Part shown: positions 16,821 to 46,700 of the stretch, one piece after another
Layout of the letters: each line of letters opens with the position of its first letter
Position numbering within the stretch: position 1 is the first letter of the stretch
Assembly: GCF_020387415.1 (NCBI RefSeq)
Contig: NZ_JAGWCB010000021.1
Location: 1 to 63,234, forward strand
DNA length: 63,234 bases
Direction: 5' to 3'
Source of the DNA: Ideonella benzenivorans
Lineage (GTDB): Bacteria > Pseudomonadota > Gammaproteobacteria > Burkholderiales > Burkholderiaceae_C
Program-made: the position numbers and the translations under genes
Notes under the pieces: generated by a model
What the model saw: only the letters and a program-made list of their open reading frames with translations
Databases searched by the model: none
What the model was told of the DNA's origin: nothing

Positions 16821-16846
16821 TCGACTCTCCCTCAGGTTGCCCCGCG

Positions 16847-17299: not shown

Positions 17300-17307
17300 A
17301 AACACAG
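17292..17307. promoter_or_regulatory. LexA (SOS) box of the umuD operon
   Basis: CTGTACATAAACACAG matches the CTGT-N8-ACAG LexA operator exactly. It lies at the 5' edge of umuD and predicts DNA-damage induction of umuD, the ppGpp hydrolase, the DUF gene, umuC and the HNH gene. Confidence 0.85.
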
Positions 17308-19582: not shown

Positions 19583-19584
19583 TC

Positions 19585-19706: not shown

Positions 19707-19781
19707 AAGAAGTCGATGAACGCATGGGCCTCATCAAGCCCGCCGGCGAGCCCGGCGCCATGGCACCGCACCTAGGCTCGT

Positions 19782-20606
19782 TCAGTCGCGATGGCTCAAA
19801 TTTGCGAAGTCCCAAAGGTCTGTGAGCTTGGCCTCTTGCCAAGAGAACTCGTTGCCCGGGACGACGGCGCTCTCGTCTTGGTCCACTTCAACACCTTCGC
19901 ACGCATCAAGCTCAGCCAAAAATTTGGCGAATGCGTTGTTGATGTCCTTGCGGCCTTCAATGTCGCCATTCCAGACGTCCTCGTCGACGACAAAGAACAC
20001 GACGACGTGGTAGGCCTGCTCTGCACCGAGCTCTTCTTCTTTCTCGACGATGCCAACGCGCACCTCGGCGATTTCATCAACCAGGTCGTCAAGTGCATCC
20101 TCGAGGGCATCGCGTACCGTCCGGACACGGTCGCAAAACTCGTTTGGCCACGAGGGCCGTCCTGCTCTCAAGGAATACCATGCGAGCACCTTCTGAGATG
20201 CGTTGGCAGAGAGCTGACGCCCCTCGTCTGGGCCTTGTGCTACCAGCAGCTCGCGCGGTACGACGTAACGGTCGGCGATGGCATGTGCAGACAGCACAAG
20301 GTCCTGGTGTGTCTCTCGATTTGGCCTGAAATCCAGGTATCGAGTTGACTGAAGGTCCCGTCGACCTCTGCGAGGCTTCCCAGCATGAGGTCTGCAATGG
20401 AGCACCTCCACGAGAGGCTCAGCCTCTTGCTTGGCAGCGACAACATCGCAGGTCTGTGAGACCACCACCAGCCAGTCGGCTTCGGCGACCTGTGTCGGCT
20501 GCTGTCCAGGCCGCGTCAGGTGAGGAGCGAGCGCGGGCAGCATGTCAGCCGGCACCACGGAGCCGGTCTTCCACCCACGCTGAGCAACCTCGTCACCAAA
20601 CGCCAA
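19782..20606 (-). CDS. Third gene of the TIGR04255-type operon, unknown function
   Basis: A 274-aa acidic protein. DWLVVVSQTCDVVAAKQEAE is the most distinctive stretch; 'SQTCD' proteins recur as uncharacterised partners in plasmid and phage-defence-like loci. A His follows in VEVLHCRPHAG, so a Cys/His metal site is possible. The middle (VRDALEDALDDLVDEIAEVRV) is helical. It starts 9 nt after the HTH gene. No catalytic assignment can be made. Confidence 0.6.
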   Translation of the reverse strand: MAFGDEVAQRGWKTGSVVPADMLPALAPHLTRPGQQPTQVAEADWLVVVSQTCDVVAAKQEAEPLVEVLHCRPHAGKPRRGRRDLQSTRYLDFRPNRETHQDLVLSAHAIADRYVVPRELLVAQGPDEGRQLSANASQKVLAWYSLRAGRPSWPNEFCDRVRTVRDALEDALDDLVDEIAEVRVGIVEKEEELGAEQAYHVVVFFVVDEDVWNGDIEGRKDINNAFAKFLAELDACEGVEVDQDESAVVPGNEFSWQEAKLTDLWDFANLSHRD

Positions 20607-20615
20607 GGCCTGACC

Positions 20616-21437
20616 TCACTCATCCGACGGAAGCGAGCGCACCGATAGGCGCCGTGTGAAGCCGGCCTCACGAAGACGCTGGCTGCGCGATTTCGGGCGC
20701 TCTTGCAGCTTGCCGACGAGCTCGTCGAATGCAGCAATCACACCGACGTCATCGATAACGTCGGCAGACAGCAAAGCGAATACAGAGGCACCAGCTGCCA
20801 GCGGTTCCTTGGCGACAGAACTGAGCGGCGCGGACGAGCGGGCCGCCCACTCCTTCGCGATGCGCTCGACAGTCGCCAGGCGCGCGCGACTGGCTTCCTG
20901 AAGCTTGATGTCGTTGGCCGCATCGAGCCATTTGTAGAGCTGAGGACGCGTGATACCGAGCACCGCGGCCAAATCTTGGATGGTGAAGCCGAATGCTGCC
21001 TGAAGCGACGAGAGCCGTTCGACTCTCCAGCGGGCCGCCGCTGTTGTTTGCCGAGGTGCTACCGACGCTGCCTTCTTGAGGGCCTCCTTCGCTTGGCTGG
21101 TCCAGCGGCTCCAGCTGTTGTCGGCCTGGTGTTCATCGAGGTCGACAATCAACTCCGGTGCCGTCGTCGGCCACGACGCGTTCAACACGACAACCTTAGT
21201 GCCAGCTGTAAGAGGAGCCTTGAGCACTCGCCCCGGCACTCCGGCACCTACGAGGTTGGAATGAGTGCCAGACAAGGTTGTGGAGGAGTAGTTGAACTGC
21301 ACCATGAACGGCTCATGGTTCTCCACCACATCCTCAATGCTGTCTGCCGCTTTGATGATGTCGCAAGGCCGACGCTGCAGCAGTGCGGCGTGCCTCGCCG
21401 TGTAGTGGCGACCTTGGATTGTGTTGCTCACATCCAT
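20616..21437 (-). CDS. HTH-containing protein, second gene of the TIGR04255-type operon
   Basis: A 273-aa protein. Residues about 145-175 form a helix-turn-helix (AAFGFTIQDLAAVLGITRPQ then LYKWLDAAN), a DNA-binding unit. The N-terminal 90 residues are a beta-rich region (FMVQFNYSSTTLSGTHSNLV). It overlaps the upstream gene by 10 nt. It may bind the 27-bp palindrome in front of the operon and autoregulate; that link is inferred. Confidence 0.65.
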   Translation of the reverse strand: MDVSNTIQGRHYTARHAALLQRRPCDIIKAADSIEDVVENHEPFMVQFNYSSTTLSGTHSNLVGAGVPGRVLKAPLTAGTKVVVLNASWPTTAPELIVDLDEHQADNSWSRWTSQAKEALKKAASVAPRQTTAAARWRVERLSSLQAAFGFTIQDLAAVLGITRPQLYKWLDAANDIKLQEASRARLATVERIAKEWAARSSAPLSSVAKEPLAAGASVFALLSADVIDDVGVIAAFDELVGKLQERPKSRSQRLREAGFTRRLSVRSLPSDE

Positions 21438-22210
21438 TCCCGTTTTGCTAGGTCGGACAGTGCTGACTTGAACGTTTTCGACGTGAGCTTCTGCATCTCT
21501 GTGTACGCACCAAGCAGCTCACCAGCGTCAAATACCTTGCCGATGTCCTTGAGGCAGTCAGTATCCACGAATCCAATCGTCGCCTCATCCCTGAGGCGCT
21601 TCTCCGCGTCCAGCATGACCACTGGCTTGTTGAGCGGCAGCGCATTGAAGTCCGGCGGCAACAGGAGCCCTCGCGGTGTCGGCGCAGCAGCACGCAGATT
21701 GACTAGGCTACCGTCGAACTGAAAAGCCGACGCCCACATCGAGCCATTCGCGCGCCCGCCTTCTGGGGTGATGCCCTGCAGGGCCGGCGCTAGGTAGTCT
21801 GCCGGCGAGCGTCCTTCAGCAGGCACAATGAGGTCGACATACCGCAGGCCGGCACGCTCGACGAACGCCCCGAGATTCGCGCCCTGGATTGCATCGAGGA
21901 CCTCAGCCCAGCGGCCGAGGAAGTCGCTCGACTGGACGTAGCTCGTGGCGTGCAAGGAGATGGAGCGCGTCCCCAGCTGTACTCCATGTTTCTGGTCGAC
22001 CGACATCAGTTGCCAGAGGGGCTGGGCCGATGTCTTTGCACCGTCGATGACGAGCTCATTGGCCTCGATGGTGCGCGGGAAGGCACTCCGCAGCCTGTCC
22101 TGCAGACCGGGAACCTTTGCCGCCATCGAGTAGTAGGGAGAGATGACCAGCTCTGCAACGACATATGCAAGCGGTGGCCTCCGCCACGTGCCGAGCGCGG
22201 TGTTGGTCAT
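21428..22210 (-). CDS. TIGR04255-family protein
   Basis: The ATG at 22210 (MTNTALGTWRRPPLAYVVAE) follows a GGAAAG ribosome-binding site, giving 260 aa; the longer frame to 22429 is rejected. The N-terminal 'RPPLxxVVxELxxxPxxxM' and the internal FVERAGLRYVDLIVP match the sporadically distributed TIGR04255 family, which has no known activity. It is first in a tightly coupled three-gene operon. Patchy distribution plus an HTH partner is typical of defence or toxin-antitoxin-like modules, which is inference. Confidence 0.7.
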   Translation of the reverse strand: MTNTALGTWRRPPLAYVVAELVISPYYSMAAKVPGLQDRLRSAFPRTIEANELVIDGAKTSAQPLWQLMSVDQKHGVQLGTRSISLHATSYVQSSDFLGRWAEVLDAIQGANLGAFVERAGLRYVDLIVPAEGRSPADYLAPALQGITPEGGRANGSMWASAFQFDGSLVNLRAAAPTPRGLLLPPDFNALPLNKPVVMLDAEKRLRDEATIGFVDTDCLKDIGKVFDAGELLGAYTEMQKLTSKTFKSALSDLAKREWM

Positions 22211-22352
22211 GATCTTTCCTTCCGGGTAGCAGTTGCCAGGGAGCGCTCTTCTGCGGAGCGACTGCAAGTAGTTTACAGAGTAGTTGACAGGCTCGGGCGC
22301 GGATTTGTTCCCTAATTCGTTAAGAAAACACCTCTGTGCCAGCCCGCCCACT

Positions 22353-22379
22353 CCGCATGTCCATAGTATGGACATGCGG
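22353..22379. promoter_or_regulatory. 27-bp perfect palindrome (operator)
   Basis: Arms CCGCATGTCCATA and TATGGACATGCGG flank a single G at 22366. It lies about 145 bp upstream of the TIGR04255 gene and 57 bp beyond the rep stop, so it probably controls the TIGR04255 operon. A homodimeric regulator with 13-bp half-sites is expected. Confidence 0.75.
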
Positions 22380-22435
22380 TGGGGATCTGCCTGAAACGGA
22401 GCACGCCGTGCAGGATGTCCCTGGGGCAACTCGCC

Positions 22436-23806
22436 TCAGCGCTCTCGAGACATCGCGAACTCAAGCAGCTCGGTGTCTGTCACCTCACCTGGCCACAGCA
22501 CCGTCGCCAGCCATCGGAAGAACGCACTGCTGGCTACCCGGCTCGAGACGCCATCGCGGCGCCAGGCCTTGGCTATCGGAGACGCAAGGTCGCCGAAGGC
22601 TTCAGCTTCGAAGCGCACAATGTGCTCAGCCTTTGCGGCCTGGTCGAATTCAGCAAACCGCTCCCTGGCTTGGGCAAGGCGGGCTGCATGCCACTCATCG
22701 CGTAGCTGCTGCAGTTTCTCCGACACGCTCGGGATTTGCGGGGCAGCGTCTGGCTCATCCTCGCCCTGGCCACCAGCGTATTGCTTCTTCAGGGCGTCCC
22801 GCATGTAGGCAATGGGCGACTGCAGCGGCGGAAGCGTAGTGCTCTTCTGGCGCTGCTCGACGTGCTCGACGGCGGCTCGCAGCACGCCCTCATCGGTCAC
22901 AGCGTAGAGGTCCTGCGCGTCCGGCCGCTTCATCCCAAGCGCAACAACGCGCTCGACCAGTTCAAGGTCGAAGACATTTTTCGCGCCCTCCTTCATCCCC
23001 TGGAGGGTCGCTTGCACCTTCGGAACCACGCGGAACTGCAGCTCTTCGACCTTGCGGCCGCGCCGGTGTTCGACGACCTCCATGCGGAAATCCTCGCTCA
23101 GTGCATCGAGTTCGGCCAGCGCCTTCTTGATGGTGTCCCGATGCAGGATACGGTAGTCGACAGTCGTGATGTCACTCCGGCCAGTCAGCACCGAGGCCCA
23201 CCAAATGATGTCTTCGCGCATCGTCAGGCGACCAGGGGACGTCAGGTAACGAGCACCGAGTTCATAGAGCACGGCCGCAGCGTAACTGCGCATCTGAGAG
23301 CTGATCTCAAGGAGCACGCGAGTGTATTGAGAGGGCTTGACGAGCTTTTCGCGGATGTCATCGTCGTACGACCAGGTGATGGTGCAGGGTTGACCCCGCC
23401 CAGGCTCGTCTATGTCGACTTTGCCGAGCAGCGAGCGAGAGGACCAGCGCTGCCCTTTGCCGACACTCGCGAACCACTCAATGGTCGTCGCCTGCATGTC
23501 GCGCAAATGCGACTTGAGGAGTGACGTGTTGTTCGAATTAAAGCGCGCGTCGTCGATGAGCTCGGAGAGCAGGATTGTGTACGTGGGTCGATCTACGCCC
23601 TGCTGCTGAGCGTGATACAGAAGCGCATTGAAGATGCGACGGGATAGCAACGTGAGCTTCCCTCGCTTGGGACGAATAGCGATGGCCTCGTTGGCCTTTG
23701 CGATGGACTGGTCGTCGCGTTCGCGACCCGATGGCTGCGCCGCCTTCGCTGCGTGAGGTCTCGTTTGATCCGAATGAGTGACTTGTGTTGCATCGCTGTC
23801 AGTCAT
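22436..23806 (-). CDS. Plasmid replication initiator (Rep_3/RepB-like)
   Basis: A 456-aa protein. Core segment TLLSRRIFNALLYHAQQQG ... YTILLSELIDDARFNSNN ... LLKSHLRDMQATTIEWFAS ... LLGKVDID matches the winged-helix Rep_3 initiators of Burkholderiales plasmids. A second winged helix follows (SSQMRSYAAAVLYELGARYL ... TMREDIIWWASVL). It would bind iterons and load the replication machinery. Upstream (23848-24346) are a palindrome, four TTGAAGA repeats and nine TTGGGGA-type repeats, consistent with oriV and autoregulation. It is divergent from parAB. Confidence 0.82.
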   Translation of the reverse strand: MTDSDATQVTHSDQTRPHAAKAAQPSGRERDDQSIAKANEAIAIRPKRGKLTLLSRRIFNALLYHAQQQGVDRPTYTILLSELIDDARFNSNNTSLLKSHLRDMQATTIEWFASVGKGQRWSSRSLLGKVDIDEPGRGQPCTITWSYDDDIREKLVKPSQYTRVLLEISSQMRSYAAAVLYELGARYLTSPGRLTMREDIIWWASVLTGRSDITTVDYRILHRDTIKKALAELDALSEDFRMEVVEHRRGRKVEELQFRVVPKVQATLQGMKEGAKNVFDLELVERVVALGMKRPDAQDLYAVTDEGVLRAAVEHVEQRQKSTTLPPLQSPIAYMRDALKKQYAGGQGEDEPDAAPQIPSVSEKLQQLRDEWHAARLAQARERFAEFDQAAKAEHIVRFEAEAFGDLASPIAKAWRRDGVSSRVASSAFFRWLATVLWPGEVTDTELLEFAMSRER

Positions 23807-23936: not shown

Positions 23937-23994
23937 GTTGGTATCCGAAAAATCGTATTCGAATCAACGAGTTAGCATCACTTTTCCTTGTGGA

Positions 23995-24346
23995 TATGGG
24001 GATGTCGCGGAGAGTCTTTGGGGACCCTGGGTTGTGGATTTGGGGAACGCGCGCCGGGAAACGGAGAGTTTTTGGGGTTCTTTGTGAGTGGACTTGGGGA
24101 TGTGGTCAGCACAGTGCTCGATTCCTGCATCTGACAGTGCGCAGCACGCGAGATATCTTCAAAACTTGCGCACTGATGGGGTGGTCTGATGGCCCATTCC
24201 CCAAAAGCTCTCACATTGACGGGCAAGCATCGGTCACTGAGCGCGCCTGAATCCCCAATGGTTCTCCACTTCGACGCCCCCAAGGTCTCCGAATTTCGGC
24301 GATTAGACGTTTCCCAGTACACTCGTCGAAATTCATCGAATGGGGA
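23995..24346. repeat. Nine TTGGGGA-type repeats in the rep-parA gap (putative oriV iterons)
   Basis: Copies of (T/A)TGGGG(A/T) start at 23995, 24017, 24039, 24071, 24093, 24175 and 24339 on the plus strand, and at 24198 and 24252 inverted. The first six show 22-, 22-, 32-, 22- and 82-bp spacing; several sit about two helical turns apart. This is the most origin-like region of the plasmid. Confidence 0.65.
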
Positions 24347-24391
24347 TTTTGCTGTGAATGCGCCTGAGACCGCTGAAGAAGAGCGAGACGC

Positions 24392-24408
24392 TGGCAACCA
24401 GGTTGCCA
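24392..24408. repeat. parS-like palindrome, site 1
   Basis: TGGCAACCAGGTTGCCA, a perfect 17-bp palindrome just upstream of the preferred parA start. It is one of six near-identical sites around parAB. Confidence 0.75.
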
Positions 24409-24452
24409 CCACGCCCTCCGCGACGACCGAGCCTCGAGCCGGGGCCATTGAC

Positions 24453-25607
24453 ATGAGCCGGATTCAGGCTCTCGCGGTTCGTGCCGAGAGCATGGTTGGG
24501 CAAATCCGACAACGACTGCTGGCACCGGAGTCACGAAAGGTGGCGCCGATGCTATCAACAGCACAGCTCGCGACACTTTGCGGTGTCGATAAAGCTCACG
24601 TCAACTATCGCGTCGGCAAGGGCGACTTGCCTGCCGGGCGCTTGACGCCAACCGGGGGGAAGCGCGAGTTCACGCTCGGTGAAGCTAGGGCATGGACGAG
24701 AACGTACCGCGCCGAGAAGATGCGCCCTGAGGGGCAACGTGCGGTGTGCGTCGCGGTCGCCAACTTCAAAGGAGGCGTTTCGAAGACAACGAGCTCGATG
24801 GTTCTAGCTCAGGGTCTCAGCCTCCGCGGTCACCGCGTGCTGGCTATCGATATAGACCCGCAGGGCTCGCTCACTACCCTGCACGGCGTCCTCCCGGAAA
24901 CTGACGTGACTGAGGACATGACGATTTCTCCGTTGTGTCACGGGCAAACGAACGACCTCACCTCTGCAGTCCGTTCGACTTACTGGGATGGCATTGACCT
25001 CGTTGCCGCGGCACCGTTCCTGTTTTCCGCGGAGTTCGCCCTGCCCTCGATGCAGATGAGCAACCCGTCAGCGCGATTCTGGAATGTGCTCTCTTCGGGC
25101 CTCGAGCCGCTTCGGAGCATGTACGACGTCATCATCATCGACACGCCCCCTTCGCTTTCGTATGTGACGATCAACGGTCTGTGGGCGGCCGACGGAATCG
25201 TCGTCCCGATTCCGCCGAGCGGACTTGACTTCGCGAGCTCGGCGCAGTTCTGGTCCCTGCTCGGTGACCTTGGGACGAACCTGGATCAGCAGGAGCCAGG
25301 CGGGAGCGGTAAGGCTTTCGATTTTCTCCATGTGTTGCTCAGCCGTGTCGATCAAGCTGACGCAGCGTCGCCAGCGGTCCGGCAGTGGATTCAGGCGACA
25401 TATGGTGAGTACGTCCTACCGGTCGAGATTCCTAAAACCACTGTGACGAGCAACAAGGCGGCTGAGTTCGCGACCATTTACGACGTCCAGAAGTACGACG
25501 GTTCTGCAAAAACCTACAAGCGCGCTGTCGATGCGTACGACCGTTTCGTTGACCTCATCGAGGAGTCGGTGGTCGAAGCGTGGCGGGCGCGTGGAGAGGT
25601 CAAGTGA
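24453..25607 (+). CDS. parA: ParA-family partition ATPase (type Ia, with N-terminal HTH)
   Basis: A 384-aa protein from the ATG at 24453. The frame is open back to 24189 and an in-frame GTG lies at 24354, but that upstream DNA is full of origin repeats and parS site 1. Residues about 30-80 form a MerR-like HTH (TAQLATLCGVDKAHVNYRVG). The deviant Walker A is FKGGVSKTTS; Walker A' is IDIDPQGS; Walker B is IIIDTPPSL. ATP-bound ParA coats the nucleoid and moves ParB-parS complexes; type Ia ParA also represses its own operon. Followed by parB. Confidence 0.9.
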   Translation: MSRIQALAVRAESMVGQIRQRLLAPESRKVAPMLSTAQLATLCGVDKAHVNYRVGKGDLPAGRLTPTGGKREFTLGEARAWTRTYRAEKMRPEGQRAVCVAVANFKGGVSKTTSSMVLAQGLSLRGHRVLAIDIDPQGSLTTLHGVLPETDVTEDMTISPLCHGQTNDLTSAVRSTYWDGIDLVAAAPFLFSAEFALPSMQMSNPSARFWNVLSSGLEPLRSMYDVIIIDTPPSLSYVTINGLWAADGIVVPIPPSGLDFASSAQFWSLLGDLGTNLDQQEPGGSGKAFDFLHVLLSRVDQADAASPAVRQWIQATYGEYVLPVEIPKTTVTSNKAAEFATIYDVQKYDGSAKTYKRAVDAYDRFVDLIEESVVEAWRARGEVK

Positions 25608-25622: not shown

Positions 25623-25821
25623 TGGCAACCAGGTTTCCACGGGTGTGGGAATCGCTCGATCTCGATGCCTGCGGCAACCTAGTTGCCAGGCGGTTTCACC
25701 CGCGCACCCGGGGTGGAAATAGAGGCCTTGCAAGCCCCTGGCAACCGGGTTGCCATCCGTTCACGACAGTGCCCTCCCCGTCTATTCGACCCACAACGAA
25801 CATCTGGCAACCTGGTTGCCA
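25623..25821. repeat. Cluster of four parS-like palindromes between parA and parB
   Basis: Sites lie at 25623-25639 (TGGCAACCAGGTTTCCA, one mismatch), 25672-25688 (CGGCAACCTAGTTGCCA), 25739-25755 (TGGCAACCGGGTTGCCA) and 25805-25821 (TGGCAACCTGGTTGCCA). The half-site GGCAACC is nearly invariant while the central base varies, as for a dimeric binding site. Likely ParB centromere. Confidence 0.82.
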
Positions 25822-25842
25822 AATCTCCCAGGAGACCCAGCG

Positions 25843-26922
25843 ATGAGCACGAAAAATAAGCTGCTGGCGATGACTATGGGCTTGGACCCGATGGCGCAAG
25901 CGCCGGCTGAGCCTGCAGTCTCGCGCGCCCCGGGGGCGCCTGCGATACTCCCGCCGCCTGCTGAAGGTAGCTTGCCTGCGCAGAAGTTTCCGCAACTTGG
26001 CCCCGGGTCCGCCCCTCGAACCGGGCCTGGGCAGATGCTGCAGTTCCGCGGGCAAATGTTGGCAATTGAAGGCGAGCTGGCAAAGGCGCGGAGCGAGCTT
26101 CAGTTGCACGAAGGTTCGACGCCCACTCGGCTCATTGATCCGGCCCTCATCGACGGCAGCCGCTGGGCGAATCGCCATCCGGATGCGTTCAATCGCCCCG
26201 AGTTCGAAAGTCTGAAGCAGGACATCGCCCACGCCGGAGGCAACGTGCAGCCGATTCTTGTTCGGCAGGCCGCGGGGCAGGAAGGGCGCTACGAGGTAGT
26301 CTTCGGACACCGCCGTCACCGAGCCTGTCTCGAGCTCGGGGTGCCTGTGTTGGCAATGGTCACGACGTCGCCCCTTTCCGACGCGGAACTCTTCGCGGCG
26401 ATGGACCGGGAGAACCGCGAGCGCGCGGACTTGTCGCCGTACGAGCAGGGGACGATGTACCGGCGAGCGCTTGACGCAGGGCTGTATCCCTCGAATCGGC
26501 GCATGGCCGAAGCGCTCGGTGTTTCGCACACCTGGGTCGCCAACGTTCTGTCAGTCGCAGACCTGCCTGCGCCGGTCCTTGAGTGTTTTCGGTCACCCCT
26601 GGAAGTTCAGCATCGGCACGCCAAGGCCATCTCTGAAGCCCTTGAGCGCGACCGTAAAGCGGTTCTGAGGCGTGCGGAGAAGCTGCGGCAGGCACCCGCA
26701 AAGCTTGCGCCGACTGCTGTCGTCGCTGCGCTCATTAAGAGCGACGCTGGCCAGGCAGATGGTGGTCGTCAGTCACTGAAGCTGGGGCAGCGCGACGTCG
26801 GAACCTGGCAGCGTGATAGGGCAGGGCGATTGACGATTCAGCTCGATGCTGCGGCTGTTCCGGCGGACAAGGTGGAGGCTGTATTGGCTGCCTTTACGAA
26901 GGCCCTCGAGTCTGTCAACTGA
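25843..26922 (+). CDS. parB: ParB-family centromere-binding protein
   Basis: The ATG at 25843 follows GGAGA, giving 359 aa; the longer frame to 25750 is rejected because it runs through two parS sites. The ParB/Sulfiredoxin domain carries HRRHRACLELGVPV (GxRRxRA box, CTP-binding region) after IAHAGGNVQPILVR. The central HTH is RMAEALGVSHTWVANVLSVA. Family members clamp DNA using CTP and recruit ParA. Six palindromes around the gene pair are its probable sites. Confidence 0.9.
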   Translation: MSTKNKLLAMTMGLDPMAQAPAEPAVSRAPGAPAILPPPAEGSLPAQKFPQLGPGSAPRTGPGQMLQFRGQMLAIEGELAKARSELQLHEGSTPTRLIDPALIDGSRWANRHPDAFNRPEFESLKQDIAHAGGNVQPILVRQAAGQEGRYEVVFGHRRHRACLELGVPVLAMVTTSPLSDAELFAAMDRENRERADLSPYEQGTMYRRALDAGLYPSNRRMAEALGVSHTWVANVLSVADLPAPVLECFRSPLEVQHRHAKAISEALERDRKAVLRRAEKLRQAPAKLAPTAVVAALIKSDAGQADGGRQSLKLGQRDVGTWQRDRAGRLTIQLDAAAVPADKVEAVLAAFTKALESVN

Positions 26923-27002: not shown

Positions 27003-27030
27003 GGGGGCAGGTTTGACCTGCCCCCTTTTT
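27003..27030 (+). terminator. Rho-independent terminator of parAB
   Basis: Perfect 10-bp stem GGGGGCAGGT / ACCTGCCCCC with a TTG loop, followed by five T (then CTTTCT). Confidence 0.92.
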
Positions 27031-27097
27031 CTTTCTAGAAGATAAAAGGGTCCCTATACGTGATGCCTACGTCTAGCCCAGCACTCAAATTTCGCCC

Positions 27098-27952
27098 ATG
27101 CGCAAACCCATCGACCTCATCCATCAAGCCACCGTGGATGGTGCACACCCCAAGCTCAATGAGCGCGTCATCTTCGCGAGTCCGGAGCTGCAGCACCTGC
27201 TGACCTCAGTCACGATGCCCGGCGACTGGAGGTACATGGATGTGCCCTGTACCGCAGTCGTCGGAGTCCAGAATCCTCAACGGGGGGCCCCGCCGGAGCC
27301 GTTCAATTGGCGCCAAGCGGCCCTGTGTCTGCACGGGGACGGCTGGGGGCTGGGGGCAATTCGATACCTCGAAGGGCCACTACGCTGCCTGGCCATGCCC
27401 GAGGCTCCAGGCGCAAAGCGGGCTCTAAAACTGACCAGCTACGCTGGCGCCGTGATTTGTTCAAACGGTGCACACAGACTTGCTGCGGCGATTCCTTGGC
27501 AGTTGCGGCCTGGCGCCAGTGGCCTGCTCCAAATGGCGGCTACCCATGAGCGTCCAGAGCTCGCTGGACGCGTAGCCGCAATCCTGGCCTACGCTGGAGA
27601 CGGCGCTCTCGAATTTGTGCAGCTGCACGCCCCAGCGCAACTCGACCAACTCGCCACGCTGGCTGATGCTCAATGCGACCTGGCCGTCCGGCTCTGTGGT
27701 GGGAGCCAGGAATCGCTCCTGGCGCTTCCCACGGATGGTGGGCCCGCCATAGAGGTCCGGCCTCGGTCTGGATGGCAACGGCTGCTGGCCAACAAAAAGG
27801 CCGATGAGGCCAGAGACACCGGATGGTTTGACTGGAGGCTACTGCCGCATGAGCTGCTCGTCGCTTGGCGTGGCAGGGGGTGGCTGCAGAGCAGCCGAGC
27901 CGGCAGCGAGCTACTTGGCGACACAGAGCCTCACGGGCCCTTGATGGCCTAG
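27098..27952 (+). CDS. Hypothetical plasmid protein
   Basis: A 284-aa protein starting MRKPIDLIHQATVDGAHPKL. No motif recognised. It contains aromatic-rich patches (WRYMDVPCTAVVGVQ; GWFDWRLLPHELLVAWRGRG) and a C-terminal AWRGRGWLQSSRAGSELLG. It follows the parAB terminator and is convergent with the HTH gene at 27957, 4 bp between stops. Probably a cytoplasmic plasmid maintenance or accessory protein. Confidence 0.55.
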   Translation: MRKPIDLIHQATVDGAHPKLNERVIFASPELQHLLTSVTMPGDWRYMDVPCTAVVGVQNPQRGAPPEPFNWRQAALCLHGDGWGLGAIRYLEGPLRCLAMPEAPGAKRALKLTSYAGAVICSNGAHRLAAAIPWQLRPGASGLLQMAATHERPELAGRVAAILAYAGDGALEFVQLHAPAQLDQLATLADAQCDLAVRLCGGSQESLLALPTDGGPAIEVRPRSGWQRLLANKKADEARDTGWFDWRLLPHELLVAWRGRGWLQSSRAGSELLGDTEPHGPLMA

Positions 27953-27956
27953 CGGC

Positions 27957-28619
27957 TCAACTGCCTTTCGATCTGTCGACCTCGTGAATCAGCGCGAAGA
28001 CGGCTCGGTCGAGTTCATCCAACTTCTCGCGTCGAACATCGTCAGGCTCATCGAAGGCAAGGTCGACTTCGCGACTGGCGGCCGCGATTTGGTCCTTGAG
28101 TTCGCGAAGCTTCGGGTTCGCCTGCTCGGCTTCGAGAACCCGCCGAGAGAGCCAGCGATGCATGGTGAGCATCTCGCTGTCACCGCTCGCTGCGCCTGCG
28201 CGAAGAGCTGCACGCCAGTTCCGCGCTGCACGTCGGACATGCTGATTTTCGGCCAATGGGAATCGCTGCAGGTGGATGTAGGGCTGACCAGTCGAGCGGT
28301 CGATGGCGAAGCTCGACAAGACGCCGATCCCATTGGCTTCGTCCTCCTCGAGGGAATGGAAGTTGGCGTCGGTGACGACATCGAGCGGCGTGACGCCGTC
28401 GGCCGCCAGCACCACAACGTAGTCTCGCCGGCGTTGAAGTTCTTCCTTCAGTTCGTACACGAACAGCCTCCACCGACCGTCCGGCATAGGCTGTGTCCCG
28501 GTCTCCCATAGCCCCACCATTCGGGGGGTGACATCCAGTCGTCGCGCAACGGCGGCTGGACTCCAGCCGAGCGCAGTTCGCATTCTATGAAGGGCAGTCG
28601 CCCTGTTGATCGCATCCAT
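27957..28619 (-). CDS. HTH (XRE/Cro-like) DNA-binding protein
   Basis: A 220-aa protein. The N-terminal HTH is ALHRMRTALGWSPAAVARRL then DVTPRMVGLWETG. The C-terminal two thirds are helical and charged with AASREVDLAFDEPDDVRREK. A perfect palindrome lies 15 bp upstream of the start codon, pointing to autoregulation. It may be a copy-number or partition-related regulator. Confidence 0.68.
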   Translation of the reverse strand: MDAINRATALHRMRTALGWSPAAVARRLDVTPRMVGLWETGTQPMPDGRWRLFVYELKEELQRRRDYVVVLAADGVTPLDVVTDANFHSLEEDEANGIGVLSSFAIDRSTGQPYIHLQRFPLAENQHVRRAARNWRAALRAGAASGDSEMLTMHRWLSRRVLEAEQANPKLRELKDQIAAASREVDLAFDEPDDVRREKLDELDRAVFALIHEVDRSKGS

Positions 28620-29181: not shown

Positions 29182-30456
29182 ATGAGCTTCTACCCAGTCG
29201 CCGTCGACGGCGAGCTGCTTGACCTCTCGCTGTTCGAAGACGGCCCGCTCAACGAGCGACTGCAGGTCGCGCAGAACAGGCGCCAGGTCATTCACTGCCA
29301 CTGCCATGAAGGGCGTGGCGAGCCGGCGCCGGCAAGTCCGCTGCGCCTGACGCCGGTGCGCCGCGGCGTGGACTACCACCTGCGCCGCGACCCGGACGAT
29401 GCTGATGCACACCACGCGGACTGTCGGCACTTCACTCTCTCTTCCTGCCAGCTTGCCCAAATCGGACTTTCGACCGACGCGCTGCGCGTAAGCGACGAGG
29501 GCGAGCTGCGCATCAACCTGGACTTCGGCCTGGGCGAGTCGGGCGACCGCGACATTGCAGCGGCCATCGTCCAGTACCACCACCCGGACGGAAAGACGAC
29601 TCAGACTCGCTCTCGTGCCAGCCTGCTCGGTCTTCTGCATCTGCTGTGGGCGCGCGCGGAGCTCAACCGGCACGACCCGCGCCGAAGACTTTCCGGGCCT
29701 GGGCCGTGGGAGCGGCTGCGCCAGGTGGCGCGACACACCGTTCCCAACTCGATGCGCAGCCTGTCCGAACATGGGCTGTCCAGCATCCTGCTGCTACCCA
29801 CCAATGCGACCGCCGAGGCCAGCGAACAGGCCAGGCGCAACCGCGCCAAGCTCTTCGAGGCCCACAAGAAGCGCCGCGTGATGTTCGCCTGCCAGCTCGA
29901 CCCGCATCTGCTTGAGGCGCGCAACGCCGGCGGCTTCGCTGACCTCTACCCGGCCTTCGGCGTCGGCCTGACGGTGCACGGAGACCTCATCACCCAGATG
30001 CTCGAGCAACACCCGTCTGAACGTGCGGCACTGGCCACCGGCCAGGCCGTCATCGCCATCGGCGTAGCCAAAGTGTGGGAGCGCAGCCGCGGTCGCCTCG
30101 CTGCGACCGTGGAGCGCATGGCGTTGATGGGCGTAACCGACCGGTACATCCCGGTCGAGTCTTCTTACTGGCGCGCCCTGGCTGAGTACCTGGAGGCCAC
30201 CGGCCGCAGCTACATGAAGCCACTCAAGCACGACGCTGCCGACCTAGTTCACCCCGACTTCGTGCTTACCGACACGCCAGCACAGGTTGCGCTCGAGGTC
30301 TACGGCATGGACACGCCGGACTACTTGGCCAGGAAGGCGGAAAAGCAAGAGTTGTACGCCCAACGTCTGCCTGGGCGGCACTGGCAGTGGGAAGCCCTCC
30401 ATGAGCGACTGGAGGTGGCCGTTCGGCATCTCCCGGCACCAATGAATCGAGCATGA
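29182..30456 (+). CDS. DUF1173-like plasmid protein
   Basis: A 424-aa protein; ATG follows GAGAGGAGGG. CHCHEGRGEPAPASPLRLTP near residue 40 and a later C in HHADCRHFTLSSC suggest a metal-binding N-terminus. The C-terminus HPDFVLTDTPAQVALEVYGM then YLARKAEKQ resembles a PD-(D/E)xK-type core. DUF1173 proteins occur on plasmids and integrative elements with no known function. It overlaps the 670-aa integrase (ATGA), so the two are cotranscribed. Confidence 0.65.
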   Translation: MSFYPVAVDGELLDLSLFEDGPLNERLQVAQNRRQVIHCHCHEGRGEPAPASPLRLTPVRRGVDYHLRRDPDDADAHHADCRHFTLSSCQLAQIGLSTDALRVSDEGELRINLDFGLGESGDRDIAAAIVQYHHPDGKTTQTRSRASLLGLLHLLWARAELNRHDPRRRLSGPGPWERLRQVARHTVPNSMRSLSEHGLSSILLLPTNATAEASEQARRNRAKLFEAHKKRRVMFACQLDPHLLEARNAGGFADLYPAFGVGLTVHGDLITQMLEQHPSERAALATGQAVIAIGVAKVWERSRGRLAATVERMALMGVTDRYIPVESSYWRALAEYLEATGRSYMKPLKHDAADLVHPDFVLTDTPAQVALEVYGMDTPDYLARKAEKQELYAQRLPGRHWQWEALHERLEVAVRHLPAPMNRA

Positions 30457-32465
30457 CGAAACCAGCCAACGCGACGACACCAAAGCTGTCGAACGTCGAC
30501 TTCCGCTTCATCAGCGCCTGGGTGCAGGGCATTGACGTGCGGGGGGCATGGGAGATGTACCAGCTGCACCGCGGCCCCGGCGACATGCGTCGAATCCGGA
30601 ACACCACCCGGCTGCTGATGGACCTGCTGGCCGGCATCGGCAAGCGTCACGGGCTGCCAGAAGCTGCGGTGCTGCGTCGAGACGCCACACGTATCGCGTC
30701 CATGAATTCAGGTGCAACGTCGCTGACTTCATCGACGGTGGCCATGAACTCATCGTCGGCGGCGGTGAAATCAGCGCATGCACCGACGCTGGACCAGTTC
30801 CGGGAGGAGCTCGAGGACCCGGATTACTACTCCGAGGCCGAGCTCATCGAGCTCTGGCAGGAGCGCTATGGAAGCGCGAAGGCAGGGCCTTCGTCAAACG
30901 ACACTGGCAGCGGCCTGGCCTCGCGGCCGCAGCCAACGTCCGAGGAGCGAGCGTTCCAGCGCCGCGCCCGTCTGGTCAAGCGTCAGCTGGAGGCCTTGCG
31001 CAAGCTTGAGGCCTTGGCCGCCGCGGCACCGATGCCGGAAGACCTGGTCGAGGCCTGGCTGTTCAACAGCGAGACCGCCAAGCGCTTGCGCACCGTGGGC
31101 ATCCTGCGCCTTGGCGAGCTGATGTTCTTCATCCGCCAGCATGGCTACCGCTGGTATCGCAAGGTGCCGCGCATCGGCGAGGAGGGCGCCAAGCGCCTGG
31201 TCACGTGGCTCCAGCAGCACGAGGCGACCCTGGGCCCGGTGTCGCAGACCGCGCTGGCACCGTTGACGAAGCTCGATGTCACCGCGGTACAGCCGGCACC
31301 GACAACTGGCGTGGTGCCGTTCGAGCGGCTCGTGGTGCCGTCGACATTGTCCGGTGCAACTGGCCGAAATCGTGCTGTGGTCGAGGACTGCAGCATCAAG
31401 GTCTCGGACGACTACGGGGCAATCAAGGCATGGCTGTCGATGTACGCGCCCGGTATCGACCCGGTGACGCGAGAGCAGGTCGGCAACGCGAACACCTGGC
31501 GAGCCTACCGAAAGGAGGCCGAGCGGCTTCTGCTGTGGTCAATCTTCGAACGCCACAAGGCACTGAGCGACCTCGATCCTCTGGATATCGCCGACTACCG
31601 TCGCTTCCTGGTGACTCCCGGGCCGCTTTTCGTGGGCTCCAAGAGCGCGCAGCGTTGGAGCGAGCACTGGAGGCCATTCGAGGGCCCGCTCAAGCCGCGC
31701 TCGCGCATCGCCGCCGAGACCATCTGCAAGACCATGTTCTCCTGGCTCGTTGAGGTTGGATACCTGAGACACAACCCCTGGGCTCAGACTCGTGGGGGAA
31801 CCAAGGTGCGACAACTGCAGGAGCTGCGCTCGCTCTCCGACCACCAGTGGGCTCTGGTCGATGCCTGGCTGAAGGCATTGCCGGCGACGCCGGCGAACAC
31901 ACGACTCCGCTTCATGTTTCGCTTTGCCTTCGTCTCTGGCATGCGGGAGACGGAGCTCGCCAATGCCAGGGTCTCGTGGCTGTACCAGGACGCGGGGGAG
32001 GGCGGCGAGCTCGTCTGGAACCTTCGAGTCATTGGCAAGGGCGAGAAGCCCCGAGACCTCCCGCTGCCGGAGCGATTTGTCGACGAGCTGCGCGAGCACC
32101 TGGTCGACAAGGGGCACGACGGGGTCTTCTACGATGTCAGCGAAGAGATGGACTTCCCCATCCTCTCGGCCCTAGTCGACCCTCGGAATCCGATGGACGG
32201 AAAGCGAGTCTACGAGCTTATGAAGGCTGCCCTGGTGGCTTGCGCTAACGACGTGGAGCGCACGGACCCCGCTGCCGCTGCGCGTATTAGGAAGGCATCG
32301 CCGCACTGGGTGCGCCACACGCATGGCCGGATGTGGGTCGAAGGCGGCGGTGACCGCGGCATTCTGCGAGACCGCCTGGGCCACGCCTCCATCGTGACCA
32401 CCGGCATCTACGACAGGTCGGACATCAGGCGTCAGCGTGGGGTGGTTGAGCGTCTGTTCGGGTAG
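30453..32465 (+). CDS. Large tyrosine recombinase/integrase
   Basis: A 670-aa protein. The N-terminal half (1-290) is a plasmid-type extension; from about 305 the core-binding domain begins. The C-terminal catalytic domain has Arg in SGMRETELANA, H-x-x-R in HWVRHTHGRMW, LGHASIVTTGIYDR with the Tyr nucleophile. All catalytic positions are intact. Such large integrases move or resolve plasmids and islands. Directly downstream, after a gene-poor 0.5 kb, lies the phased 11-bp box array, which may be a binding target. Confidence 0.82.
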   Translation: MTKPANATTPKLSNVDFRFISAWVQGIDVRGAWEMYQLHRGPGDMRRIRNTTRLLMDLLAGIGKRHGLPEAAVLRRDATRIASMNSGATSLTSSTVAMNSSSAAVKSAHAPTLDQFREELEDPDYYSEAELIELWQERYGSAKAGPSSNDTGSGLASRPQPTSEERAFQRRARLVKRQLEALRKLEALAAAAPMPEDLVEAWLFNSETAKRLRTVGILRLGELMFFIRQHGYRWYRKVPRIGEEGAKRLVTWLQQHEATLGPVSQTALAPLTKLDVTAVQPAPTTGVVPFERLVVPSTLSGATGRNRAVVEDCSIKVSDDYGAIKAWLSMYAPGIDPVTREQVGNANTWRAYRKEAERLLLWSIFERHKALSDLDPLDIADYRRFLVTPGPLFVGSKSAQRWSEHWRPFEGPLKPRSRIAAETICKTMFSWLVEVGYLRHNPWAQTRGGTKVRQLQELRSLSDHQWALVDAWLKALPATPANTRLRFMFRFAFVSGMRETELANARVSWLYQDAGEGGELVWNLRVIGKGEKPRDLPLPERFVDELREHLVDKGHDGVFYDVSEEMDFPILSALVDPRNPMDGKRVYELMKAALVACANDVERTDPAAAARIRKASPHWVRHTHGRMWVEGGGDRGILRDRLGHASIVTTGIYDRSDIRRQRGVVERLFG

Positions 32466-32957
32466 TAGGACATCTGAATCAAAAGGGGCAAGCCCCTTGC
32501 TGCTCGACCAGTGCCCTGATTTAGCCAGTGCTTGATCGCCGCGACGATGACCTCGGTCTCAGTCACGCGGCGTCCGGCGAGCATCTCTTGCGCCACGTAG
32601 GCCTAAAGCTGAACAGCAACGTGACGAGCTGGGCTATCTGCCCTTCAGCCAGGCTGGCGGTGCCTTGCTCAGCTGACTTCGGATTCGGATAAAGGACACG
32701 GTTCTGCACCTATCCATCTCCTCTCTTTTTCAGCTGTGTGCACGTTACTAGGACACGTCTCTGTCAAGTCGGGGGCGTTACCTGAACGCCTTCGGCTACA
32801 TCGCTAGGCTGCCCAAATCCAACCGCGGGCGCCCCGGTCGACGCCCTCCTTGGATCCCTCATGAACCCTCTTGCAGCCCAATTCCAAGGCTGAACGACTC
32901 CTTGAACGGAAAGTTTGGGTGCCCCGAATCGGCCCCGCAACGAATCCGGCGCCAAGT
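32466..32957. other. Gene-free stretch with a degenerate IstB fragment
   Basis: No intact gene. At 32622-32671 the plus strand reads [16 protein letters not shown], matching IstB (ATPase helper of IS21 elements), with stops on both sides. The rest is unassigned. Confidence 0.6.
32622..32671 (+). pseudogene. IstB (IS21) fragment
   Basis: Encodes [16 protein letters not shown], identical to residues of the longer IstB remnant on the opposite strand at 33701-34290. Only about 16 codons remain. Confidence 0.65.
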
Positions 32958-33115
32958 TGATACTCAAATGAACACCACGCGATGTTCGATTGATGTTCGA
33001 TTGATGTTCAACTGGACATCAACTCGCCGACTTTGGTCGCGAACCCAGAGTTGAACACCACATGAACATCATCTGGTGTTCAGTTGAGCATCAATTGATG
33101 TTCACGTAGACACCA
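32958..33115. repeat. Phased array of twelve 9-bp boxes at 11-bp spacing, two sets of six
   Basis: Boxes of consensus TGATGTTCA or its complement TGAACATCA start at 32958, 32969, 32980, 32991, 33002 and 33013, then at 33052, 33063, 33074, 33085, 33096 and 33107. Spacers are always 2 bp; a 30-bp unit (33022-33051) separates the sets. The period is about one helical turn, so a protein would polymerise along one face. The geometry matches known centromere-like arrays (R388 stb 9-bp repeats with 2-bp spacers; R1 parC 11-bp repeats in two clusters). No ribbon-helix-helix partner gene is obvious nearby. Confidence 0.88.
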
Positions 33116-33174
33116 ACTCGCTCTCGACTTGTCATTTCGCCACGAATGCGTTTAAGGACGCCCGTTTTACGGTT

Positions 33175-33232
33175 CAAATCGCTAAAAAAGTCGACGACCC
33201 CCCTGGGGGTCGTCGTAAAAATTTGCGATTTG
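33175..33232 (-). terminator. Large hairpin: nested inverted repeats with T-run on the minus strand
   Basis: Inner stem CGACGACCCCC / GGGGGTCGTCG (33192-33215) with a 2-base loop, framed by CAAATCGC (33175-33182) and GCGATTTG (33225-33232). On the minus strand the inner stem is followed by ACTTTTTT, so it can act as a terminator for leftward transcription from the IS debris; it also closes the right side of the phased array. Confidence 0.7.
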
Positions 33233-33309
33233 CCTTGGAAAAAGGCAACGTCATTACTCGCTTGTTGTCAATGTTCCAGGAACGTGTTCTGTGTGTTGAG
33301 GGCCCAGAA

Positions 33310-33382
33310 TGGACCCGGTGGGGATGCGGACAAGAGCTTGGACTGGTTATGCGGCGATGCCCAGGCGCTGACGGTGCTGGGC
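33310..33382 (-). pseudogene. IS3-family transposase C-terminal remnant and IS end
   Basis: The minus-strand frame ending at TAA (33349-33347) reads AQHRQRLGIAA, as in the remnant at 5238-5322 and the intact IS at 12302-13900. The terminus GGGGATGCGGACAAGAGCTT is conserved. Confidence 0.65.
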
Positions 33383-33700: not shown

Positions 33701-34290
33701 TTACCGAGCCCTCACGCGCGACTTGGCCTGTGCTGTTGAGCGCAGGTAGCGGATCGAGTCGTTGCCGGTCTCCACGATGTGGCTGTTGTGCGTGAGCCGG
33801 TCCAGCAGCACCGTGGTCATCTTGGCGTCGCCGAACACCGCGCTCCACTCGGCGAAGGCGAGGTTGGTCGTGATCATCACGCTGGTGTGCTCGTAAAGCT
33901 TGGACAGCAGGTGGAAGAGCAAGGCCCCGCCGGCTTGGCTGAACGGCAGGTAGCCCAGTTCGTCCAGGATCAGCAGGTCCAGCCGCAGCAGGCCGGCCGC
34001 GATGCGCCCCGCCTTGTCCTCGACCTTCTCCCGCTCCAGTGCGTTGACCAAGTCCACCGTGCTGTAGAACCTTACCTGGCGCCCGTGCTGCGTGATCCCC
34101 GCCACGCCGATGGCTGTGTCCAGGTGGGTCTTGCCCGTACCCGGCCCGCCCACCAGCACCACGTTGTGCGCGGCCTCGGTGAAATTGCAGCGCACCAGCT
34201 GCGTCACCAGTTGCCGGTCCACGGCGGAGACCTCGAAGTCGAAGCCCGCCAGGTCTCGGTGGATGGGGAAGCGCGCCGCGTGCATCTGAT
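33701..34290 (-). pseudogene. istB: IstB-like ATPase of an IS21-family element, 5'-truncated
   Basis: Reads from [20 protein letters not shown] through Walker [17 protein letters not shown], Walker [14 protein letters not shown] and [20 protein letters not shown] to a stop at 33701. The first residues before RYQM are missing and no istA is present. A Thr/Ala position after the Walker A motif is altered (HLDTA for HLATA). Sequence at 33570-33600 (TGAGCCACCGTACCGACCCA) looks like an IS21 terminus. Dead element. Confidence 0.75.
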
Positions 34291-34537
34291 AGCTCGGACA
34301 GCACCACCGGCAGGAAGCAGGGTTGATTGGCAACGGGGCGGTAGCAGGCCAAAGGCATCCCCAGCACAAGGCGACACATTCACCTTGCAGGCCCCATGCC
34401 GCAACGATAGGCTGGGATCATTCACCCCACATCCGAACCAAGTGCCAACACGGACGTCCCATGCCTGAGATCAGCATGCTGCTCGACCGCGCCGGGACCG
34501 CGATGGGCGGGGTTTTGCTACAGCTTCGTTAGGCCGC

Positions 34538-43746: not shown

Positions 43747-46700
43747 ATGCTGCGCCACACCAGGATTCCCAACACGATGCAAGCTCACTTCAGCAGGGCA
43801 TGGACATGGGTCGGACTGCTGGGTCTGATCGCGACGGGTCTCGTCGGCGGCGGCTTGAGCCTGGAGAACGAGCGCCGACTCGCGCAGGAGATGGAGCGCC
43901 AGGCGCAGCAGGTGGCGCAGCAGGTGGAGGCACGCTTCGGCCTGTATGAGTACGGCTTGCGGGGCGCCAGCGGCGCCATCCTCGCCGGCGGCGGCGCAGA
44001 GATCCGGCGCCCGACCTTTGCCGCCTACTCGCAAAGCCGCGAGCTGTCGCGAGAGTTCCCGGGGGCCCGGGGCTTTGGCTTCATCCGGCGCTGGCCCCTT
44101 GGCCAGGATGAGGCCGAGCTGCGCCGCGCGCGCGCGGACGGCATGCCGGATTTCCGGCTGCGCGAACTGACTTCGCACCCTGGCGAGCGGTTCGTCATCG
44201 AGTACATCTATCCCCAGGCCAGCAACCAGGGCGCGACCGGCCTGGACATCGCCTCGGAACGCCATCGGCGCGAGGCAGCGGTGGCCGCGGCCCAGTCAGC
44301 CGCGCCGCGGCTGACGGCGCCGATCACCCTGGTGCAGGCCAACCAGAAGCCGCGGCAGGGCTTTCTGATGCTGCTGCCGGTCTACGCGTCGGGCGTGCTG
44401 CCACCCGACCCTGATGCAAGACTGGCCCGGACCCTGGGCTGGTCCTACGCGCCGCTGTTGGCCGACGAAGTGCTCAGACCCTTGCTCGAGGCGTTCCCGC
44501 TGGTGAGCATCCGCCTGACGGAACGCGACGAGTCTCGACCGTTCTTCGAGTCACACCCGGACCAGGCCGCTGAGACCGCCCCTATCACTGCGCGCGCCCA
44601 AAGGGCCTTGTCGGTCTTCGGTCGGGCGTGGAGCCTGGAGTTGCAGTCCAGCCCCGCCTTGCGCGCCCAGTCGCGTCTCGCACCCGTCTGGCTGGTGCTG
44701 GTGCTCGGCGCCGTGCTCAGCGGGCTGATCGCCCTGGTCACCCGCCTGGCGACGGCCCGGCCGGATGCCGAGGTCCTGGCTCAGCAAGGCGGCACCCGGC
44801 TGGCGGACTTCGTTCGCAGCCCGCTGGCGCGATGGTCCTTGCTGGTCCTGCTGGCCCTGGGCGGGGCCTATGCGGCCTTCGCGGGATGGCAGGTCAGGCA
44901 GTCGGTCGCCGCCAACCTTGAGCGCGAGTTGCAGCTGCTGGTCGACCAGCGCGCCAGCAACGGTGAGACCGCCATGAAAGGCCGCAAGGGCGCGCTGGTC
45001 TACCTGCGCGGAACACCACCGGTCGATGGGCTGGTGCGCAGCGACGCCAGCGGTCGCGACCCGCTGGATGGCAGCGCTGCCGCGCTGTGGCGCCAGCGCA
45101 TGGGGCAAATCTTCGCGGCCTATGCGCAGGCCAATCCGGATGCCCAGGAGATCCGCTTGATCCGCCTGGAAGGCACTGCCCGGCAACTGGTCACGTGGCG
45201 TCGGGAAGCCGCCGGCGCCACCCAGGCGGGTGCCGTATCGATGGACGAGGCGCTAGCCCCGGCAGCGCTCGGCACGCTGAACGATCTGCGTGCCCGCCTG
45301 CTGCGCGGTGAGGCCTGGACGCATCCCCTCACCGCCGCAGCGCGCCCGGACGCGCAAGGCGAGCCGCTGCGGCAGCTCATTCGCTACACCCAACCGGTGC
45401 TGGTCGACGGCAGGCTGTTCGGCGTGCTGGAAATGGACGTCGATGTCTCCGCGCGCTTCAGCGCCGAGAGCCTGCGCCTGCCCTGGGGCGGCAGCTTGCA
45501 TGTGCTGAGCAGCGACGAGCGCTGGCTGACCCGCCAGGGCCCGCTGGAGGGGAACGCCGCCGACAGCTGGCGAGACCGCTACCGCCCCGGCGCGATGGCG
45601 ATCGCCACCCCGCTCGGCCGCTTGCGCGCCTGGCAGGGCGCGCAAGCCGAGGTGCTGAGCGTGGAAAGCGTCATCGATCCCAACCCTGGTGACCGAAGCG
45701 CACGGGTCATCTACCGCGCGGTGGTGCCCAAGCTGGCCATGGACGCCGAGGCGATGACGCAATGGCGCTCGCGGATGCTGCCGCCGGCGTTGCTGGCGGG
45801 CCTGTTCTATGCGCTGATCTACCTGTACTGGCGCCTTCAACAGCGCCATCAGAGGCGACTCACGACGCTCAACGCCGACCTCGAGCGCCGCGTCGCCGAG
45901 CAGACCCGGGATTTGCAGAGCGAACGGAGCCGACTGAGCAACATCCTGGAGGGCACCGGGGCCGCCACCTGGGAGTGGAACGCGCAGACCGGGGAGACCC
46001 GCTTCAACGCCCGCTGGGCAGAGATACTGGGCTACCGCCCCGAGGCCCTGCTGCCGATGACCCGCGACGGCTGGATCGCGCTGATCCACCCCGAGGACCT
46101 GGCACGTACCCGGCAGCTGCTGGGTGCGCACCTGAAGGGTGAGAGCGCGCAATACGTTTGCGAAAGCCGGCTGCGCCACCAGGACCAGCACTGGGTCTGG
46201 ACCCTGTCGACCGGCCGGGTGATGAGCCGCACCCCCGATGGCCGGGCCGAGTGGGTCAGCGGCACCCTGCTGGACATCTCCGAGATGCGCGCCGCGCAGC
46301 AGGAGCGCGAGCGCTTTGCCAGCCTGCTGCGCGGCGTGCTGCAGGCAGCGACCGACTTCTCCATCATCGCCACCGAGCCCGATGGCCTGATCACCGTGTT
46401 CAACGCCGGTGCCGAGCGCCTGCTGGGGTACCGCGCCGAGGAGATGGTCGGGCGGCAGACGCCGGCCCTCATTCACTTGCCCGAAGAGGTCATGCAGCGC
46501 GGCGTCGAGCTCAGCGCGGCCGAAGGCGTAGAGGTACAGGGCTTCCGAGTCTTCCTGCATGTGCCCGAGCGTGATGGCAGCGAGCAGCGCGAGTGGACCT
46601 ATGTGCGCCAGGACGGCAGCCGGGTGCCGGTGTCGCTGACGGTGAGCGTGGTGCGCAGCGAGCGCGGCGAGATCGTTGGCTACCTGGGCGTTGCGCAGGA

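Follow-up and report, generated by a model that had tools for sequence, protein, structure and literature searches.

The window, by which is meant the whole stretch of 63,234 bp that was analysed, is a contig whose first and last 127 bases are identical, which makes it a complete circular plasmid of about 63,107 bp. A Pfam scan of 46 window proteins, which took in part of the smaller open reading frames, places a Rep3 gene at 22436-23806, parA at 24189-25607 and parB at 25750-26922, which confirms the statement of the sequence-only reading that the plasmid already has a ParA-ParB pair. A DUF1173 gene (29182-30456) and the gene of a 670-aa DUF3701 tyrosine recombinase (30453-32465), one of three tyrosine-recombinase genes on the plasmid, lie further along, and among the 46 proteins the scan detected neither a relaxase nor a type IV secretion protein. 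Repeats of 22 bp adjoin the Rep gene at 23988-24107, and a palindrome at 27023-27050 directly follows parB. The genes that flank the replication and partition genes (18581-22429, 27098-28619 and 30453-32465) are 70-85% identical to those of a contig from another genome (G012:C70), whereas Rep (29%), ParA (56%) and ParB (45%) have diverged much further, which looks like an exchange of the replication/partition core within a conserved surrounding. A gene at 43747-48978 encodes a hybrid histidine kinase of 1743 aa with CHASE, PAS, receiver and Hpt domains, and genes for GGDEF and receiver proteins are close to it.

The feature of interest is an array of twelve 9-bp boxes with constant 2-bp spacers, and hence an 11-bp phase, which is divided into two sets of six obeying the same phase rule, at 32958-33021 (box starts at 32958, 32969, 32980, 32991, 33002 and 33013) and at 33052-33115 (starts at 33052, 33063, 33074, 33085, 33096 and 33107), neither assigned to a strand, with a 30-bp separator at 33022-33051. 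The number of boxes, their positions between 32958 and 33115, the spacers and the separator are all as the sequence-only reading had given them, and its judgement that the array is too regular for chance holds as well: the best six-box and five-box scores at period 11 are 51/54 and 44/45, compared to maxima of 37 and 32 in 100 first-order Markov sequences of the same length and to at most 36 and 31 in the window itself at periods 9, 10, 12 and 13, in a test which is partly circular because the array itself supplied the consensus. The reality of the array is backed independently by homologous arrays elsewhere and by a lag-11 autocorrelation that uses no box consensus, in which the array reaches 30/44 at 32981 and is the sole lag-11 cluster of at least 26 in the 63 kb, the eight control lags giving a single cluster at lag 8 and another at lag 20. 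Ten pairs of boxes scoring at least 16/18 at a distance of 11 bp occur in the window, all of them inside the array, where 0.02 would be expected, and a box scan of the whole window found no second such array.

The boxes follow the pattern TGA-N3-TCA, with column counts over the twelve of T11 G11 A9 on the left, mixed letters in the middle and T9 C12 A10 on the right. They are not direct repeats throughout, since six boxes score better in the forward direction and six in the reverse. The middle three letters alternate between TGT-like and ACA-like forms while the outer TGA...TCA is nearly fixed, a pattern that would be expected of arms read by a symmetric dimer. The second set is a 94-bp duplication of the first (73% identity over 73 nt), and the two differ at 14/54 box positions and 6/10 spacer positions, both of which are small numbers.

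The array sits in a gene-free module that also comprises a hairpin on one side and, beyond 176 bp on the other, a conserved block of 41 bp. The block, GTAACGC-GACTTGACA-N6-TGTCNNNGTAACGTG, occupies 32741-32781 on the minus strand and might be likened to a nic site, an operator or a crossover site. It has a short GACA/TGTC dyad, it folds no better than shuffled sequences, and it matches none of the nic sites that could be tested. An inverted copy of its left arm (GACTTGTCA) is found across the array on the plus strand, at 33126-33134. The hairpin (33176-33232, minus strand), which contains the core TTTTTACGACG common to the module copies described below, has a folding z of -6.9 as single-stranded DNA and resembles an intrinsic terminator. 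A transcriptional switch, which had been among the earlier suggestions, is not seen in its simple sigma-70 form, a simple scan giving 0 promoter-like sites at 32500-33350. The module is bordered on the hairpin side by an IS21 istB gene (33701-34369, minus strand) and on the block side by an istB fragment (32623-32670, plus strand) that has 16 residues identical to that gene; the fragment cuts off whatever had lain beyond the block, and since the block runs into it the module may be decaying. A plain IS21 end was considered as the nature of the locus and rejected, because the strong plasmid matches of the neighbourhood are to a 47-48-bp piece of istB and not to the module. With matches at E 0.2 to 10 set aside, the plasmid search returned no convincing match to the module itself except that of strain PM1 discussed below (E 0.06 and 0.1).

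A look at related plasmids for the array and for a conserved neighbour gene had been suggested, and this check, when run, gave five copies in four genomes with neighbours that differ. All belong to one family: besides the copy in the window (genome G000) there is one in G013 (contig C2), two in G184 (contigs C10 and C16) and one in G075, on the 599-kb plasmid RPME01 of Methylibium petroleiphilum PM1. The first match, in G013:C2, was obtained when 149 relatives were searched with a 20-mer. With the reverse strand of 32701-33270 as query, 399 family genomes gave DNA matches at E below 1e-4 in no others than G000, G013 and G184, weaker matches (E of at least 0.003) being treated as noise; G075 and a further genome, G151, emerged when 149 relatives of G184 were searched. 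When up to three mismatches were allowed, 7 of the 399 family genomes matched, only G000 and G013 with at most one mismatch and the other five with three each; a strict pattern matched only G000 among 399 genomes of the order, a sample that does not contain G013, G184 or G075. The module had no match in IMG/VR, and a literature search at title level found no paper on it, which is not proof of absence.

In all five copies the same order is kept, namely a hairpin element, an array in 11-bp phase, a poorly conserved stretch of 142-198 bp and the block, GTAACGC...GACTTGACA-N6/7-TGTCNNNGTAACGTG, which measures 40-41 bp (50 in PM1) and has conserved arms around centres that read GAGACG, GCGGTT, GTGGTT, AAGAAT and CCCGTTG. 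TTGACA is present in four of the five blocks, that of the window included, and TTGTCA in the fifth. The hairpin is strong in G184:C16 (z -5.7) and G013 (-4.4) as well as in the window; in the PM1 element the core runs the other way, and the fold does not surpass that of shuffled sequences (z -0.7). The box sets vary from 6+6 in the window to 3+5 in G184:C16, 4+3 in G184:C10, about five degenerate boxes in G013 and, in PM1, 4+6+6 boxes of another, TGNTGCC-like type, to which two small arrays are added at 19.1 and 33.0 kb. The block core TGTCNNNGTAACGTG has five matches in six whole genomes, all five of which lie beside an 11-bp array, compared to two matches for the reversed control pattern in the same six. 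Between the two G184 copies identity is 90% in an alignment of 565 positions, and their arrays differ by whole 11-bp units, so the array evolves by such units. The DNA past the block differs between the copies, and the homology of the G184 pair ends close to it. At the thresholds used, the only protein common to the window and G013:C2 is a 40%-identical IstB, for which no match was found on the G184 contigs or the compared PM1 stretches, and G184:C16 shares other genes with the window plasmid, all at least 26 kb from the window module. The module is thus a gene-free, portable and bounded unit of a hairpin, at least one set of phased boxes and a block of about 41 bp.

Several other observations were made in and around these replicons. 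A metallophosphoesterase and HAD_SAK_2 cluster, found at 59340-62948 of the window and at 947-5983 of L106, is shared with G184:C16; there it comes immediately after the module, on its downstream side. The G013 module is adjoined by 121-bp repeats with long GACCACATTCCG palindromes (L050, 8577-9234), and three near-identical palindromic stretches of 51-58 bp between small genes of NC_008826 (35127-36230) share TTTTTACGACG with the module hairpins. At 14295-17305 the window encodes a UmuD-like S24 peptidase and a UmuC-like polymerase, the latter split over two reading frames; in PM1, umuD and a Y-family polymerase gene are located no more than about 5 kb from the module. At 51933-57167 of the window a gene for a DnaE2-type polymerase and, behind it, two genes placed like imuB and imuA make up what is perhaps a plasmid-borne mutasome cassette, in which the gene at the imuB position has no Pfam match; the PM1 plasmid annotation places imuA, a Y-family polymerase and an error-prone polymerase together.

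The array can be separated from the genes beside which it happens to lie in the window. The suggestion that it provides arm sites for the 670-aa integrase is not supported, because close relatives of the recombinase lack both array and block: neither is present in the 97.6-kb contig of G012, whose recombinase is 81% identical, or within 832 bp downstream of the 68%-identical recombinase on an 8.7-kb contig of G082 (a genome left out of the block-core search of six whole genomes), and only one of the five modules has such a recombinase gene close by. Arm sites were accordingly rejected, as the array does not travel with the DUF3701 recombinase. A centromere for ParB was rejected as well, the array lying 6 kb from parB, unlike a parS close to parAB, and the palindrome after parB being the better candidate; for iterons of Rep the better candidate is the repeats adjacent to that gene. 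The array is therefore separable from both the neighbouring recombinase and ParAB.

The sequence-only reading had noted that no StbA- or ParR-like gene is adjacent, and none was found among the 46 window proteins by Pfam, which likewise revealed no parM or parR near the array, or by searches for StbA, where sequence, PDB and family scans gave nothing usable in the window. StbA_2 had no real match in any of 6 genomes (best E 0.7), a result that a highly diverged StbA could escape, and an StbA-like open reading frame on contig C4 of G000 shows a weak resemblance (hhalign probability 1.1%, E 0.047). The PDB search returned the solved 72-residue chain of R388 StbA (7pc1), its other weak matches being designed repeat proteins and the like.

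The likeness to the stb repeats of R388, to which attention had been drawn, holds in geometry and, by several relatives, in the kind of place. The R388 stbDRs lie near oriT and consist of 9-bp repeats in two sets of five, separated by 2-bp spacers; they are bound in trans by StbA, which affects both the stability and the transfer of the plasmid (PMC3098194) and for which R388 has additional sites, much as PM1 has small arrays besides its main one. R388, R46 and NAH7 were chosen for the lag-11 scan because they are named as stb plasmids in the same paper. In all three the scan, which uses no box consensus, finds an array directly upstream of stbA, towards the mobilization genes. That of R388 is at 16280-16369, and a second cluster is at 23531-23600. 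In R46 two arrays lie just upstream of stbA, at 20301-20391 (36/44) and 20399-20511 (39/44), and a third cluster, at 31457, is not at stbA; in this A+T-rich plasmid other lags cluster too (4 at lag 10 and 3 at lag 20). The array of NAH7, of which 50 of 82 kb were scanned, is at 19815-19872 (26/44), between stbA and the next gene, and PM1 has a lag-11 cluster elsewhere, at 17323.

Relaxase loci were reached by a search of six genomes which involved no selection for stb, and it led to a 15.5-kb contig of the window's own genome (G000:C4) with an 11-bp array at 3452-3527 (28/44). On one side of this array, at 3279-3300, is a sequence like the nic site of RP4, and on the other is a NikA-like RHH gene, which is followed by a PF03432 relaxase. 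Another contig, G151:C40, which was found by its array, has the end of a MobP1-like relaxase about 200 bp away and no block. No clear array was seen at G000:C9, which carries a relaxase and VirB4 (best 24/44 in 35 kb), or at the relaxase locus of G151:C27 (best 26/44, a G+C-rich run, in the 8 kb read), so that one of the three relaxase places chosen by neither array nor stb has an array. Within G000 the PF03432 matches are only those on C4 and C9, with the VirB4 match on C9; none occurs in G013, G184 or G075, all carriers of the module, and the PM1 plasmid annotation shows no relaxase in about 198 of 599 kb. Unit similarity was tested with the G184:C16 unit consensus as reference and 500 column permutations, the mixed-orientation window array being left out. 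The G184:C16 units resemble those of G151 (1 of 500 permutations as good) and C4 (20 of 500), and the similarity is not significant for PM1 (97), R46 (84 and 103), R388 (168) or NAH7 (462). The TGATG core can be aligned with the stb box (TTGCATCAT/TGATGC), but with this reference 168 (R388) and 84-103 (R46) of the 500 permutations do equally well.

The reading that we favour, with a confidence that falls somewhat short of even, is that the module is an orphan docking site of the stb/oriT type which is served in trans. A small dimeric DNA-binding protein, with either a helix-turn-helix like that of StbA or TraK or a ribbon-helix-helix fold, would sit on each TGA-N3-TCA box, and up to twelve dimers along one face of the helix would form a cooperative nucleoprotein rod which, as in R388, would control transfer of the plasmid and also its place in the cell, and hence its stability. 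For the block, the likely role would be that of recognition and nick region of a relaxase, or site of another enzyme. Because the plasmid encodes neither protein detectably, both would come in trans from a co-resident element, or from an undetected gene; candidates are the relaxase-bearing G000:C4 and the relaxase and VirB4 of G000:C9. What the sequences show is the module, its phase, its evolution by units and its unlinked neighbours, whereas the protein, the cooperativity, the role of the block and the service in trans we infer. In favour of this reading count the like geometry beside stbA in R388, R46 and NAH7, the arrays near the relaxases of G000:C4 and G151:C40, the small additional arrays of PM1, the portability of the gene-free module, the unit-wise changes of the array and the finding of no relaxase or secretion gene among the 46 window proteins. 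Against it count the missing StbA_2 match, the non-significant unit similarity to R388, R46, NAH7 and PM1, the relaxase loci of G000:C9 and G151:C27, the three carrier genomes in which PF03432 has no match, the weak fold of the block, the clusters at other lags or places in R46 and PM1, and the possible decay of the window copy. Like the R388 stbDRs the window array is intergenic and has 9-bp boxes in two sets, but it differs from R388 and R46 stb in having no adjacent stbABC or relaxase, boxes in both orientations, and an additional hairpin and block. Stand-alone oriT mimics of relaxase-less plasmids are described for the pWBG749 family (PMC8136818), and the module resembles these in being a gene-free cis unit on plasmids without mobility genes (an oriT would ordinarily have its relaxase gene in cis, and the 46 window proteins include none), although neither a known nic site nor a matching helper relaxase was identified for it.

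The same geometry would suit a second centromere or host-location site, bound by an StbA- or ParR-like protein and with no role in transfer, the block being the remnant of an autoregulated promoter. The parC site of R1, from which the near-palindromic boxes of mixed orientation set the window array apart, has a similar geometry of two blocks of 11-bp repeats, and the plasmid contains only one such array; stabilization of R388 by StbA and the stbDRs (PMC3098194) also points this way. We consider this reading rather unlikely, however, since ParA, ParB and the palindrome after parB are present, no partner gene was recognized beside the modules, and G012 shares backbone genes yet has no array in its 97.6-kb contig. 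Unlikely too, though deserving of weight, is a portable, insulated promoter/operator for varied establishment genes, comparable to the IncN CUP elements, in which the array would be the operator for ArdK/KorA-type repression. Its precedents lie in the binding of TTGACA repeats by ArdK in direct or inverted order (PMC9723621) and in the repeated conserved upstream regions of the CUP operons on IncN plasmids (PMC5371602), and the TTGACA of four blocks, a hairpin that could insulate the module and two 90%-identical copies in G184 with different DNA downstream suggest a conserved non-coding module repeated upstream of different genes. Against it stand the lack of a sigma-70-like promoter in the window module and of a conserved downstream gene or -10 element, and the R46 leading region (22-31 kb) has no 11-bp array at the threshold used; nor is an ArdK homologue evident for the window module.

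The conserved arms of the block (GACTTGACA/TGTCNNNGTAACG) around a variable centre of 6-7 bp, the end of the G184 homology close to it and the three tyrosine-recombinase genes would be consistent with a site-specific recombination site, with the block as a dif-like core and the array as an accessory region making resolution directional; but the closest recombinase relative, in G012, lacks block and array, the arms share only TGTC/GACA and no known recombinase site was matched, which makes this improbable. It is decidedly improbable that the module is a relic, functional elsewhere and now decaying between IS21 fragments, as the istB pieces on both sides and the short degenerate version in G013:C2 might suggest, since the boxes differ less than the spacers between the sets, on the small numbers given above, and hairpin and block have been kept. 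Very improbable is an iteron array of a replication origin, of the sort seen inside phage initiator genes. The exact 20-mer, two boxes in phase, occurs in 21 IMG/VR stretches, all 21 of which pass a four-box threshold of 28/36 at 11 bp, and in 3/3 stretches read the array is within a long gene, one with a replication-initiation Pfam match (PF07261), but this likeness in 9-mer and period is selected and serves as a lead only, because the 20-mer was the query and several stretches are near-identical. The phage boxes differ in context, being in genes where the window array is intergenic, and the plasmid has Rep3 with its own adjacent repeats and no initiator gene recognized near the module. The phage boxes themselves (L118 7683-7748, L126 3649-3736 and L134 597-673), whose 9-mer is nearly that of the window, encode a repeated peptide, such as SEHQVNIKRT, and are probably in-gene origin iterons.

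A broader version of the docking-site reading is possible but doubtful. The module might be a docking cartridge, a gene-free unit exchanged among the plasmids and islands of one bacterial family, which would give a replicon without a system of its own an address for a positioning or transfer apparatus encoded in trans, would adapt by the gain and loss of whole 11-bp units, and would keep the arms of its block constant while the box sequence follows the partner protein (two genera have TGATGTTCA, the Methylibium megaplasmid a TGNTGCC-like box). Many plasmids without transfer genes nevertheless spread. If the module is indeed a stand-alone site of the stb/oriT type, the array together with the fixed block would be a sequence that can be searched for in supposedly “non-mobilizable” replicons of the Burkholderiales, and would offer a test case for the co-evolution of a phased array and its protein.
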